36,999 nt of DNA, from contig CANQYD010000021.1 of NCBI GenBank assembly GCA_947627985.1, positions 1-36,999 on the forward strand. Reading direction: 5' to 3'. The position numbers and the translations under genes are program-made. Numbering within the stretch: the first letter of the stretch is position 1; every line of letters starts with the position of its first letter. This stretch comes from an uncultured Clostridia bacterium. Its GTDB lineage: Bacteria; Bacillota; Clostridia; Oscillospirales; Ruminococcaceae. Of this stretch, positions 3,178 through 26,794 are shown one piece after another. The notes beneath the pieces are model-generated. The model saw only the letters and a program-made list of their open reading frames with translations, was not told where the DNA came from and did not search any database.

Positions 3178-3424
3178 GACAAGTCAAAAAGTTCGCCAGC
3201 CTTTCAAGGCTGCGGGTTCCAAGGGCGGAGCCCTTGGTCGCTCACCGCAGTGAGCGAAATCCCCAAGCAAGAGGACGGCGGAGCCGTCGTCTTGCTCTTA
3301 ATCGTAATGAGCGCAGGAGGGGGAAATGAAAACAGTCCTGTGGACTGTTTTCATCGGGGGAACCCTCGCCGGGGGTTCCCCCAACAAAAAACCGGCGACG
3401 AAGTCGCCCGGAGCCGAGCGAAGC
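3178..3424 (-). repeat. Composite multi-hairpin element, copy E2 (inverted)
   Basis: Same element as at 505-810 in opposite orientation, running from GACAAGTCAA (3178-3187) to GGAGCCGAGCGAAGC (3410-3424). It contains a CCAAGGG/CCCTTGG-type hairpin, CGCTCA/TGAGCG around CCGCAG, an AAGAGGACGGC hairpin with a single mismatch also present in copy E3, the 13-bp ATGAAAACAGTCC stem (loop TGT), the perfect 10-bp stem 3356-3365/3373-3382 and GGCGAC/GTCGCC (3394-3408). It fills part of the ftsQ-murA gap. Confidence 0.8.
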
Positions 3425-3436
3425 GAGGCTCACATG

Positions 3437-3974: not shown

Positions 3975-4059
3975 GGGCGAAGCCCCCGGCGCCTTCGGCG
4001 CCGGCTGCCGCCGCTCCGCGGCGGCAGCGACCGCGCTCGCGCGCGGTCGGGCTTCGCCC
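3975..4059. repeat. Cloverleaf palindromic repeat, copy A
   Basis: An 11-bp outer stem GGGCGAAGCCC (3975-3985)/GGGCTTCGCCC (4049-4059) encloses three back-to-back perfect hairpins: 8 bp CCGGCGCC with loop TTC (3986-4004), 10 bp CTGCCGCCGC with loop TCC (4005-4027) and 8 bp GACCGCGC with loop TCGC (4029-4048). Almost no unpaired base remains. It lies 23 bp after the murA stop codon. Copies B, C and D share the plan with other stem sequences. Confidence 0.9.
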
Positions 4060-6658: not shown

Positions 6659-6743
6659 GGGCGAAGCCCCCGACGCCGAAGGCGTCGCCTCCGAAGCGAA
6701 GCTTCGGAGGAAGTCGCGCTTGCGCGCGACTTGGGCTTCGCCC
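6659..6743. repeat. Cloverleaf palindromic repeat, copy B
   Basis: Outer stem GGGCGAAGCCC (6659-6669)/GGGCTTCGCCC (6733-6743). Inner hairpins: 7 bp CGACGCC loop GAA (6671-6687); 10 bp CCTCCGAAGC loop GAA (6688-6710); 9 bp AAGTCGCGC loop TTGC (6711-6732). It shares its right flank CCCTTTTACCCACCTTTACT and a left motif TATGTATTAC with copy C 265 bp further on, so B and C are a tandem duplication including flanks. Confidence 0.9.
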
Positions 6744-6923
6744 GGACCCCTTTTACCCACCTTTACTGCTAAAATGTGCCCCTACCCCGGGCTTGCAGCT
6801 GCCGCACCGCGTTCACGCTGCAAGGAGAAAGGCATGCCGGATAGGTCCGGGCTTGCTCCCGGGGTTTAAGCTGTATTGAAGGTGATGTATGTATTACGGG
6901 CTTTGGGTGCGGGATCGTACCCG

Positions 6924-7008
6924 GGGCGAAGCCCCCGACGCCGAAGGCGTCGCCTCCGAAGCTTCGCTTCGGAGGAAGTCGCGCTCCCGCGCGACTTGGG
7001 CTTCGCCC
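6924..7008. repeat. Cloverleaf palindromic repeat, copy C
   Basis: Outer stem 6924-6934/6998-7008, identical to copies A and B. Inner hairpins: CGACGCC loop GAA (6936-6952); CCTCCGAAGC with loop TTC (6953-6975), the reverse complement of the loop in copy B; AAGTCGCGC loop TCCC (6976-6997). It lies 63 bp after the ftsW stop codon. The 6756-6915 spacer between B and C contains no gene I can recognise. Confidence 0.9.
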
Positions 7009-7071
7009 GAGCCCTTTTACCCACCTTTACTTTCTGAGTCCCGCCGGGCAAGACCCCGGCTTGCGCACTCG

Positions 7072-15604: not shown

Positions 15605-15863
15605 GCTTCTCTCGGCTCCCGTGCGACTTCGTCGCCGGTTTTTTGTTGGGGGAATCCCCGGCGAGGGTTCCCCCGATGAAAACAGTCCACAGGACTGTTT
15701 TCATTTCCCCCTCCTGCGCTTATGAACGAAAAAAGCAAGACGACGGCTCATGCCGTCCTCTTGCTTAAGAGATTTCGCTCACTGCGGTGAGCGACTCGGG
15801 GACGCTGTCCCCGAGACCCCCGCAAGCCCTTTAAAAAGGGCTTGATCCTAAACTTGACTTGTC
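15605..15863 (+). repeat. Composite multi-hairpin element, copy E3
   Basis: Runs from GCTTCTCTCGGCTCC to TTGACTTGTC, upstream of the dcw promoter. In order: GCGAC/GTCGC; GGGGGAATCC/GGGTTCCCCC (one G-T pair); the 13-bp ATGAAAACAGTCC stem with loop ACA; the GCAAGACGACGGC hairpin with the same single mismatch as E2; CGCTCA/TGAGCG around CTGCGG; CTCGGGGA/TCCCCGAG with loop CGCTG; and AAGCCCTTT/AAAGGGCTT. It is the cleanest copy and the best reference for the element. Confidence 0.8.
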
Positions 15864-23864: not shown

Positions 23865-24338
23865 TTATTCCTCAATATAAACCCGTTTCATTTTCTGCTC
23901 TTTTAAAGGTCGATCGCGAAAATCTGTTTTAACGGTCGCGATCTCGTCCACCGTCTCTATTCCCTCGACGACTTTGCCGAACGCGGCATACTGACCGTCA
24001 AGGTGCGGCGCGTCCTTATGCATGATGAAAAACTGCGAGGATGCGGAGTCGGGGTTTTGCGAGCGCGCCATTGAGATGACGCCTCTTGTGTGTTTTATCG
24101 GGTTCATGACGCCGTTTGCCGCGAATTCGCCCTTGATCCTCTCTTTCGAGCCTCCCATGCCCGTGCCCTCGGGGTCTCCGCCCTGGATCATGAATCCCTC
24201 GATGACCCGATGAAAGATGAGACCGTCATAGAAGCCTTCTCTTACGAGCTTTTCAAAATTTGCGACCGTGATCGGCGCGGCGTCGGGGTAAAGTTCAAGC
24301 TTTATAAGCTTGCCGTTGTCCATCTCTATTGTTACCAT
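23865..24338 (-). CDS. Cyclophilin-type peptidyl-prolyl cis-trans isomerase
   Basis: 157 residues with the cyclophilin core: FHRVIEGFMIQGGDP (active-site Arg and Gln), SMARSQNPDSASSQFFIM, and HLDGQYAAFGKVVEG. There is no signal peptide, so it is cytoplasmic. It catalyses proline isomerisation in protein folding. Start ATG 24336-24338 with AAAGGAG. It is separated from clpE by 200 bp carrying cloverleaf repeat D; no clear promoter is visible there, so it may be read from the clpE side. Confidence 0.93.
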   Translation of the reverse strand: MVTIEMDNGKLIKLELYPDAAPITVANFEKLVREGFYDGLIFHRVIEGFMIQGGDPEGTGMGGSKERIKGEFAANGVMNPIKHTRGVISMARSQNPDSASSQFFIMHKDAPHLDGQYAAFGKVVEGIETVDEIATVKTDFRDRPLKEQKMKRVYIEE

Positions 24339-24381
24339 CTTTATCTACTCCTTTAGCTGTTTTTGTGCGGGAAAGGGGTAT

Positions 24382-24471
24382 GGGGCGCAGCCCGGTCGGC
24401 GAAGCCGACCCCTCCGACCCCGAAGGGGTCGGAGGCTCCGGTTCCTTCGGAACCGGAGGGGGCTGCGCCCC
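24382..24471. repeat. Cloverleaf palindromic repeat, copy D
   Basis: Outer stem GGGGCGCAGCCC (24382-24393)/GGGCTGCGCCCC (24460-24471). Compared with the other copies both arms changed together, CGA to CGC on the left and TCG to GCG on the right. Inner hairpins: GGTCGGC loop GAA (24394-24410), 11 bp CCTCCGACCCC loop GAA (24411-24435), 10 bp CTCCGGTTCC loop TTC (24436-24458). It lies 67 bp after the clpE stop codon. Confidence 0.9.
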
Positions 24472-24538
24472 GGCGCCTCCCCTCTTCCGCTTGTGAATTT
24501 AAGAGGCAGAAAGCCCCGTGCAAGGTCTTATCCTGCAC

Positions 24539-26794
24539 TCAGTTAAGTCCTTCGATCTTTATCTTCCCGTCAACTGCCGTGACGTTTATAGAGCGCAGTT
24601 TGATCTCCCCGCTGTCGACGATCATCGAGGCGATCTTGTCCTCGACCTCCTTTTGCAGCACCCTGCGGATATCCCTCGCGCCGTATCTTTCATCGTAAGC
24701 AAGCTCGGCTACGGCTTCCTCCGCCGCACGGTCGAATGTGAACATGATCAGCTTTTCGGCAAGCGGCGCCTCCATCTCTTTGAGCATGATATGCGCGATA
24801 TCGGCATAATTTTCCTTCGTAAGGGGATTGAATACCACGATCTCGTCCACCCTCGAGATGAATTCCGGGCGAAGAAATTCCCGAAGTCCCTTTATAGCGC
24901 GGTCCCTTGAGACCTGCGACTCGGTCTTTGAAAAGCCGATGCCGAGGGATTTGTCGGTCGAGCCGGCGTTTGATGTCATAATTATGACCGTATTTTCAAA
25001 GTTTACGCTCCTGCCTTGGGCGTCGTTGACGCGCCCTTCGTCCAGAATCTGTAAAAGAATGTTCATGACGTCGGGGTGCGCCTTCTCGATCTCGTCAAAA
25101 AGAACCACCGAATAGGGCTTTCTGCGTATCTTCTCGGTGAGCTGCCCCGCCTCGTCGTATCCGACATACCCCGGAGGCGAACCGATGAGCCTTGAGACCG
25201 TGTGCTTCTCCATGTATTCCGACATGTCGATTCGCACAAGCGGCTCCGTCGCGTCGAAGAGCTCGGCTGCAAGGGTCTTTGCGAGCTCGGTCTTGCCGAC
25301 GCCCGTCGGTCCCACGAATATGAAGGACGCGGGTCGCTTTTTCTCACTGAGCTGCACCCTCGAGCGCTTTATCGCGTTGCAGACAAGATCGACCGCCTGC
25401 GGCTGACCGACGATCCTCTTTGAGAGCGCGGCGTGGAGATTTCTTATCTTCTCATATTCGCTCTCGACGATCTTGTTCGCGGGAATGCCGGTCCAGAGCT
25501 CGATCACCTTCGACAGATCCTCTTCGTTGACGGTGACGGCGTTGACGATCGGCTCCAGCGCCTCGGCTTCCTTTGAGAGCCTCATCGCCTCGGCTCTTGC
25601 CCTTGCGATCTCCTCATAATCGGGATTTTCGGCATTTTCCTTCTCGGTTATCCCGGCTTCTATGTCCGAAAGCTTCTTTTTGAGATCGGCATATTCCCCG
25701 AGCTCCGGAGTTCTTATCGAAGCAGAAGCGCAGGCTTCATCCAAAAGATCAATCGCTTTATCCGGCAAAAATCTGTCGGTGATATATCTCTCCGAAAGCA
25801 CCGCGCACATTCTCAGCGCCGCGTCGGATATCTTCACATGGTGGAAGTCCTCGTAATATCCCCTGATACCTTGAAGCACCTGCACCGTGTCCTCCACAGT
25901 CGGCTCGGGGACGGTGACGGGCTGGAACCTTCTCTCGAGCGCGGAATCCTTCTCGATATACTTTCTGTACTCCTTAAAAGTCGTCGCGCCGATGACCTGC
26001 ACCTCGCCTCTTGAAAGAGCCGGTTTTAAGATGTTTGCGGCGTTCATCGAGCCGTCGCTGTCGCCCGTGCCGACAAGGCGGTGTATCTCGTCGATGAAGA
26101 GGATTATGTTCCCCTCCCGCTTGACCTCTTCTATCAGCCCCTTCATTCTCGACTCAAACTGACCCCGAAACTGCGTTCCCGCGACGAGAGCCGTCATGTC
26201 GAGCAGGAAAAGCCTCTTTCCCCTGATGTTGTAGGGCACTTCTCCGGCAACGATCTTCTGGGCGATGCCTTCCGCGATCGCCGTCTTTCCGACGCCCGGC
26301 TCGCCTATCAGGCAGGGATTGTTTTTCTGACGGCGGGAAAGAATCTGCATCACCCTGCCGATCTCCCGATCTCTTCCGACGATCCGGTCTAATTTCCCCT
26401 CCGAAGCCCGGGCGTTCAGGTCGGTGCAGTAGGTATTCAAAAACCTCAGCTCATTTTTCTGCCGACCGCCCTGCTTGGTCTTGGTATCGGGATTGTCAGC
26501 CTGTTCCCGGGGCTTTTGCGGTCCTCCTCCGAACTTGTTCATGAGATTAGAAAAGAACTCCGGCATGGTGCCCGAACCCCCCGGCTCGAAGCTGTCTCCC
26601 TCGGGCGGAAAGCTCTCCGCGAATTCTTCGAGGTCCTCGTCGGTGATCCCCATCTGCTTCATGTAATCGTCGATCTGTGATATCCCCGCCTTCTTGGCGC
26701 AGATAAGGCAGAGACCCTCGTTCTTCTTTTCGTTTCCGTTCATCGTGGTGATGAACACCACTGCCTGCCGCTTTTTGCATCTTGAGCAAAGCAT
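24539..26794 (-). CDS. clpE: Clp AAA+ unfoldase with N-terminal zinc finger (ClpE-like)
   Basis: A HSP100 unfoldase that feeds substrates to ClpP or disaggregates proteins. The 751-residue protein lacks the Clp-N double repeats of ClpC/ClpA. It starts instead with CSRC...CLIC (Cys3, 6, 29, 32), the treble-clef zinc finger characteristic of ClpE. Two AAA+ modules follow: Walker A GEPGVGKT (164-171) with FIDEIHRL, then [10 protein letters not shown] with [13 protein letters not shown] middle region with coiled-coil character lies between them. Start ATG 26792-26794 behind AAGGAGG. In Bacilli clpE is under CtsR control; I see no CtsR heptad repeat here, and the gene is 15 bp downstream of the CvpA-like gene, implying operon transcription. 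ClpC is the main alternative name. Confidence 0.88.

Follow-up and report, generated by a model that had tools for sequence, protein, structure and literature searches.

The four cloverleaf-shaped sites in the 36,999-nt stretch of DNA analysed here (the window) are, in our preferred reading, copies of a REPIN-like intergenic repeat that is limited to one genus, occurs in high copy number and acts as folded DNA, an explanation to which we give a probability of about 0.52. The evidence comes from the plan of the four copies, from the many further copies in the same and related genomes, from the way in which pairing is kept while sequence changes, and from the kinds of loops, the gene contexts and the insertions at orthologous junctions.

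Four cloverleafs in the window

A structure-only detector, which has no knowledge of sequence and looks for three perfect hairpins of at least 6 bp each within a closing stem of at least 8 bp, found exactly four such structures in the window, at 3975-4059, 6659-6743, 6924-7008 and 24382-24471; the coordinates and common plan that the first-pass annotation had given for these copies were exact. The detector found none in five dinucleotide shuffles of the window, and no closed structures with two or four inner hairpins in the window itself. On either strand every copy folds into one closing stem and three hairpins, with z from -6.9 to -9.6 as RNA (eight folds, each copy on both strands) and from -7.5 to -10.7 as DNA (six folds). 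The four cloverleafs are therefore real and beyond chance.

Copy A (3975..4059; no strand is assigned to this or any of the following features) lies between murA and the next gene, which is ftsQ/divIB-like. Its arms are at 3975-3985 and 4049-4059 and its hairpins at 3986-4004 (loop TTC), 4004-4028 (TCC) and 4028-4049 (a 4-nt loop). Copy B (6659..6743), between ftsW and murG, has arms at 6659-6669 and 6733-6743 and hairpins at 6671-6687 (GAA), 6688-6710 (GAA) and 6711-6732 (a 4-nt loop). Its near-tandem twin, copy C (6924..7008), has arms at 6924-6934 and 6998-7008 and hairpins at 6936-6952 (GAA), 6953-6975 (TTC, inverted relative to B) and 6976-6997 (a 4-nt loop). Both are borne by a near-tandem unit of about 265 bp (6659..7018), with similar sequence (CCCTTTTACCCACCTTTACT) immediately to the right of each. 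Since the inner parts of B and C, 265 bp apart, differ in two loops only, one of these differences being the exact inversion of GAA to TTC, the two copies count as a single case of covariation, independent of A and of D. Copy D (24382..24471), between clpE and a peptidyl-prolyl isomerase gene, has arms GGGGCGCAGCCC at 24382-24393 and 24460-24471 and hairpins at 24394-24410 (GAA), 24411-24435 (GAA) and 24436-24458 (TTC). The earlier remark that all copies lie downstream of a minus-strand gene is uninformative, since all 32 genes that a simple script called in the window are on the minus strand. A second composite repeat occurs in the window at 504-609, 3320-3425 and 15619-15749, in both orientations, and in many other places of the same genome; it is laid out as ATGAAAACAGTCC..GGACTGTTTTCAT, a CCCTCGCC..GGGGGTTCCCCC hairpin, and then GGCGACGAAGTCGCC and CGGAGCCGAGCGAAGCGAGGC.

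A high-copy family with one plan

The 2.16-Mb genome of the window (G000) holds 191 exact-arm copies of the form GGGCGAAGCCC...GGGCTTCGCCC with 50-80 bases between the arms, or 197 when GNA arms are allowed, and the reversed-pattern control gave 0 for either kind of arm. The proposed repeat family thus exists well beyond the window and follows one plan, in which an 11-bp arm, GGGCGNAGCCC, and its inverse enclose three packed hairpins. The usual arm contains GCGNAGC and is a small palindrome in its own right, whose centre reads GNA on the 5' side of either strand; its variants are GGGCGCAGCCC, GGCGAAGCCCC, GGCGGAGCCCC and GGGCTAAGCCC, with GCGCCCCTTTTT seen once.

An arm-only search, blind to inner structure, gave 132 elements in stretches from the genus that were partly picked where copies were already known: 49 in 816 kb of G000, 73 in 420 kb of a second species, G018, and 10 in 508 kb from 29 other species of the genus. 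The same search gave no element in 147 kb from outside the genus or in shuffles. A three-hairpin parse succeeded for all elements except one, and 127 of the 131 parsed elements outscored the best of 396 shuffles of their inner part. When any arm spacing up to 300 bases was accepted, a right arm followed 44 of the 58 left arms of G000, always at 50-69 bases. The corresponding 60 of 78 left arms in G018 are spaced at 50-79 bases (30 cases), 20-29 bases (2) and 120-300 bases (28), the last group probably consisting of elements whose own right arm is not exact. Exact arm 11-mers lie inside paired elements in 90 of 94 cases in G000 and in 94 of 161 in G018, so it is probable that degenerate copies exist in the latter. 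When mismatches were allowed in a structure-only search of 425 kb of G000, 37 three-hairpin, two two-hairpin and no four-hairpin structures were found.

Some copies stand in tandem. One array (L041 14900-16100, contig C3 of G000) contains three cloverleafs 282-292 bp apart, of which copies 1 and 2 have flanks that are 89% (left) and 93% (right) identical and inner parts that agree at 76% of 51 aligned positions; in copy 2 the third hairpin looks chimeric. Among the tandem pairs of G000, 9 of 14 have inner parts that are at least 92% identical. The linkers between cloverleafs contain short degenerate repeats of the type TCAGAAGTCAGAGG, found in the flanks of several G000 copies (for example at L041 15120-15160).

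Pairing is kept while sequence changes

Stem lengths differ from copy to copy, and pairs were therefore tallied by script for each element separately. Of the 3508 stem pairs in 128 distinct elements, 3447 are Watson-Crick (the others being 14 G-T, 11 A-C and 36 of other kinds), while 129 of the 132 inner sequences are distinct, which bears out for the family the stem covariation that had been noticed between the four copies. No broken pair is present in 89 of the 128 elements (40/46 in G000, 41/72 in G018), and at least one unpaired stem position in the other 39, most of them from G018 (31/72).

Between close copies, with each change counted once per hairpin pair and position, there were 28 double transversions, 12 double transitions, 23 single changes and one double change that began or ended as a non-pair. 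If changes passed through G-U, double transitions should be favoured; at 12:28, they stand near the 1:2 expected in the absence of such a path. The single changes, read on the arbitrary contig strand, comprised 10 involving G-T, 2 involving A-C and 11 others. Over 66 close pairs, which are not independent of one another, we counted 18 exact loop inversions, 65 other loop changes, 42 double changes, 25 single changes and 8 junction changes.

A loop inversion is also seen between orthologues, at the phoU-phoB junction, where six species have one copy at the same position (L048 15880 in G000, L026, L263, L265, L266 and L267). In the gap-free columns of this locus none of 74 paired positions varies, compared with 23/90 flank positions, 8/15 loop and junction positions and 268/1583 positions of other sequence. 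The surroundings are about 91-94% identical in the six species, beyond the MurA-based expectation, and the region has therefore probably been exchanged between species. This indicates that the paired bases are under constraint, or are mended, on top of copying, and that they are unchanged even in pairs speaks for selection or recency over ongoing copying. Inverted loops and homogenised arms are described as footprints of template switching in excerpts of two studies (PMC8794818; PMC8604942).

Loops of the cloverleafs

Among the triloops, 274 of 311 are GNA or TNC (117 and 157, respectively), and the closing pair is C-G in 297 of the 311 and G-C in none. Tetraloops have the form gCNNGc in 39 of 56 cases, d(gCNNGc) too being a stable loop in DNA, and 17 loops are longer. 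GNA loops on G-C stems give extraordinarily stable DNA mini-hairpins, with a Tm of 78 °C for GCGAAGC (excerpt of PMC4686876), and GNA and CTTG loops are found in Streptomyces telomeres, for which models of "clover leaves" have been presented (excerpt of PMC7205883).

In G000, GNA or TNC loops are carried by 50 of 56 distinct hairpins inside elements and by 12 of 74 outside (Fisher 9e-18). The contrast is weaker in G018 (76/97 inside, 36/75 outside), perhaps since degenerate elements were not all masked there, and in the other carriers 2 of 15 hairpins outside elements have such loops. In the 16 non-carriers of the genus, where no cloverleaf was found, 14 of 28 perfect triloop hairpins have GNA or TNC loops, so the preference is in part a habit of the genus and not of the element. 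The controls gave 1/12 outside the genus and 20/76 in 69 other Clostridia loci.

Folded DNA or RNA

The first-pass annotation had offered two options, an RNA element of 3' ends, processing or stability, and a hairpin-forming mobile DNA element. Of the two, the evidence favours folded DNA over RNA as what is being preserved. With genes called by a simple script, the 42 classified copies of G000 lie at 25 co-directional, 11 divergent and 6 convergent junctions, where these classes make up 70, 15 and 15% of intergenic bases; 5 further copies are at edges and 2 inside called genes. The 60 classified copies of G018 lie at 20 co-directional, 18 divergent and 22 convergent junctions (49, 25 and 26% of intergenic bases), with 3 further copies at edges and 10 inside called genes, so that 12 of 122 copies in the two genomes fall within genes. 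Co-directional junctions are under-used in both genomes, and convergent junctions are over-used in G018 (22/60 against 26%) but not in G000 (6/42 against 15%); there is therefore no preference for 3' ends that is consistent across genomes.

Nor do the copies favour one strand. On the sense strand of 45 co-directional elements the loops are GNA in 52 cases, TNC in 53 and other triloops in 11, and the imperfect pairs comprise 2 G-T, 2 A-C and 9 other mismatches. The T tract of an intrinsic terminator, sought as a T5 run within 15 nt, was present at 4 of 244 sides and at 1 of the 45 downstream sides of co-directional elements. Given the copies between divergent genes, the lack of a strand preference in the loops, the lack of any excess of G-U (14 G-T against 11 A-C) and the scarcity of T tracts, we abandoned the RNA 3'-end or terminator as the main reading, although the convergent excess in G018 stands. 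The view that the element is neither a tRNA nor a riboswitch of a recognised class agrees with our searches: the tRNA search found none, and the Rfam covariance models gave no match at the gathering threshold in the window, none at E<=1 around copies A-C, and at copy D three matches with E of 0.45-0.81, all far below gathering.

Insertion and mobility

Junction gaps were measured between the ends of protein matches. The ftsW-murG gap is 15-87 bp in the 23 measured relatives without an element there, and with a cloverleaf 528 bp in G000 (copies B and C), 194 bp in G004 and 285 bp in G026; it was not measurable in G001, G002, G019, G020 and G029. The murA-ftsQ gap is 18-56 bp in most relatives and 121 bp in G023 without an element, compared with 986 bp in G000, where it contains copy A and further repeats, and 156 bp in G010, where it likewise contains a cloverleaf. 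At both orthologous junctions the elements are thus insertions, the empty sites coming from other species rather than strains, and this fits the mobile-element option. The ftsW-murG cloverleafs of G000, G004 and G026 have different hairpins, and murA-ftsQ is occupied in both G000 and G010, so that insertion into the same junctions appears to have happened repeatedly. The clpE-isomerase gene order around copy D was not found in relatives and is uninformative as an empty-site test. The clpE loci of 29 relatives gave no match to the isomerase (the clpE end being missing in G011 and G020), and copy D, in the region 24338-24539, may therefore lie at a rearrangement point.

No target-site duplication was detected, as flanking direct repeats of 2-8 nt around the 132 elements are about as frequent as with swapped flanks (4 nt: 14/132 against 10 expected; 5 nt: 2 against 2.8). 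Flank sequence is common to different copies for up to about 280 bp, so the unit that spreads may be larger than the cloverleaf. A longer closing stem beyond the arms, suggested by inspection of the sequences, was rejected as copy-specific pairing, since an element's own flanks pair no better than swapped flanks.

Y1 genes score above the cut-off in 7/15 carriers and 1/16 non-carriers, and no element lies beside a Y1 gene (flanks of up to 1.5 kb) at the six loci inspected of 19 matches, leaving linkage to IS200/RAYT unsupported. G000 has two Y1 transposase genes, at C5:21314 and C1:728; the former, which we take to be IS200-like, has CCCCCGG..CCGGGGG hairpins around it. Reverse transcriptase showed no clear association (above cut-off in 5/15 carriers and 2/16 non-carriers), the match in G000 being below the cut-off. 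Loss of SbcCD as the reason for survival of the repeat was also rejected: SbcD, the hairpin nuclease subunit, is above the cut-off in 9/15 carriers and 2/16 non-carriers, a pattern over the 31 genomes of the genus that is the opposite of what loss would predict. As to a phage origin, seven IMG/VR contigs match the arm pattern, none of them with a three-hairpin element, and plasmids gave no match to copy A with its flanks.

Distribution among genomes

Among 30 further species of the genus, 14 carry exact-arm copies (2 to 68 each); none of 29 genomes from outside it does. All 13 species with 76-79% MurA identity carry copies, as does one further species at 68% (G026); the remaining 16 species of the genus (64-68%) have none. 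An order-wide search with GNA arms in 394 genomes, six of them in the genus, matched five, namely G000, the carriers G010, G022 and G028, and G065 in another family, where the match is isolated and by arm pattern alone (G065:C2:169119, L255). In our reading the repeat is limited to a genus of gut Clostridia, in which it is high-copy and intergenic. Identical junction sequences place Candidatus Faeciplasma pullistercoris (L148 and G012; Oscillospiraceae) in this genus, and the named records nearest to it, seven metagenome bins, bear the label "Lapin", which we read as rabbit. Among 80 named murA loci, three contain cloverleafs (L092, L095 and L097, which by junction sequence are the carriers G010, G004 and G026) and 77 do not.

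Interpretation and alternatives

We propose that each copy, with its 11-bp mini-hairpin GGGCGNAGCCC and the reverse complement of it inverted around three packed hairpins, would fold into a cloverleaf on either strand once that strand is single, be it at the replication fork or after extrusion of a cruciform, helped by loops most of which belong to a kind with exceptional stability in DNA. Such folding presumably takes place in the cell. The repeat would have spread in a REPIN-like manner as a non-autonomous passenger, through a putative enzyme or by hairpin-mediated recombination, perhaps as the cloverleaf itself rather than as a larger unit, and it may have some function for the host. Pairing would be kept partly since a constraint on the DNA fold makes broken hairpins rare; template switching, which copies one arm onto the other, may be a further cause of the kept pairing and would leave the loops inverted. 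It is doubtful that the repeat goes further and is a selfish element whose unit of replication is the folded single-stranded cloverleaf, with a candidate fold-reading protein that keeps and spreads the shape while sequence drifts or is swapped hairpin by hairpin. Such a protein would read the mini-hairpins of the arms and the three GNA-capped hairpins, and a telomere-like fold would have turned into a high-copy interspersed repeat. Were the fold read by a protein, this would be a novel mode of DNA recognition and might serve as a genome tool.

Three other explanations were weighed against the folded-DNA repeat. An RNA element of 3' ends or operon junctions, whether terminator, processing or stability hairpin and perhaps made from both strands, would account for the very good RNA folding on both strands, for the 25 of 42 classified G000 copies between co-directional genes and for the over-used convergent junctions of G018 (22/60). 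An RNA element acting from both strands would also forbid G-U. Against the folded-DNA reading itself we count the 10 G-T against 2 A-C single changes between close copies, read on the arbitrary contig strand, and the 39 of 128 elements with an unpaired stem position. Other bacterial palindromic repeats have been deemed plausible RNA elements (excerpt of PMC3733652). We nevertheless consider an RNA element quite unlikely, because T5 runs occur at 4 of 244 sides, loops and wobble pairs lack a sense-strand bias, copies are present between divergent genes and the loops are mostly other than the GNRA and UNCG kinds of RNA.

The near-constant number of three hairpins and the invariant paired bases of the pho locus are left unexplained by copying, and in G000 the loops inside elements differ strongly from those of other hairpins. 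These observations make it unlikely that the cloverleafs are a neutral by-product, that is, quasi-palindromes kept perfect by template switching alone and amplified with larger intergenic repeats, without function or dedicated mobility. Such an account would draw on the loop inversions and double transversions between close copies, which are footprints of template switching (excerpts of PMC8794818 and PMC8604942), on the flanks common to copies and on the frequency of GNA-type loops in other hairpins of the genus. Very unlikely, in our estimate, is a recombination or replication site in which folded single-stranded DNA is read by a dedicated protein, as at the telomeres of linear replicons or attC, and in which the inner hairpins are an exchangeable cassette. 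The loop repertoire (GNA and CTTG) and the cloverleaf model of Streptomyces telomeres (excerpt of PMC7205883) would suit it, as would L041 copies 1 and 2, with flanks 89% and 93% identical around an inner part at just 76%, but inner parts are at least 92% identical in 9 of 14 G000 tandem pairs, the copies are interstitial and the loops lie on both strands (117 GNA, 157 TNC), and the protein families looked for were Y1 and reverse transcriptase.

The repeat offers a natural experiment, with many different sequences and one four-way fold in one genome, that allows the direct question of whether bacteria select on folded DNA and lets covariation at the DNA level be told apart from that at the RNA level. 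Judged by a covariation test on its own, these repeats would probably be labelled structured RNA. They also provide a case in which template switching may imitate compensatory evolution.

Comparison with known systems

MITEs are short, non-coding, high-copy elements with inverted ends and a target-site duplication. The cloverleaf repeat is likewise short, non-coding and high-copy, is inserted into gene junctions and has 11-bp inverted arms, but it lacks a target-site duplication and no matching transposase was found. REPINs are inverted doublets of REPs, with a spacer predicted to form hairpins in single-stranded DNA or mRNA (excerpt of PMC3116915). Like REPs, BIMEs and REPINs, the repeat consists of short, intergenic, high-copy palindromes, and its arms form an inverted hairpin doublet; a perfect 8-bp REP with a 3-nt loop is described from S. 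maltophilia (excerpt of PMC8266576). It differs in that its spacer is three further hairpins, that the GTAG and CGTC tags are absent (within 8 nt of 1/132 elements each, compared with 4 and 14 for the reversed motifs), that no element adjoins the six inspected Y1 genes, and that G-T pairs, often observed in REP stems (excerpt of PMC3733652), are very rare (14/3508).

Perfect pairing, concerted double changes and loop inversions are all found here as in template-switched quasi-palindromes (excerpt of PMC8794818), which are, however, the outcome of a mutation process on existing hairpins; in the cloverleafs the target of this process would be a high-copy element whose architecture is fixed. The closest work-alike is the telomeres of Streptomyces, in which packed palindromes capped by 5'-GNA-3' or CTTG show compensatory changes (excerpt of PMC7205883), and the cloverleaf repeat shares with them palindromes with such loops that fold into a cloverleaf. 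Those telomeres are replicon ends with terminal proteins, whereas the present copies are interstitial between genes at about 200 per genome, are enclosed by an inverted pair of arms and have loops on either strand. In a survey covering 40 genomes, 92 families of stem-loop repeats are presented, with single, double and some more complex structures, and the word cloverleaf is not used (excerpt of PMC2267715). The literature searched by arm letters and for cloverleaf repeats, which leaves most subscription papers outside, contained no description of the repeat, and the papers in which arm 11-mers occur were, from titles and the beginnings of abstracts, judged unrelated. We conclude that this is a real repeat family, undescribed in the literature searched, which combines a REPIN-like layout with telomere-like loops and is best explained as folded DNA.
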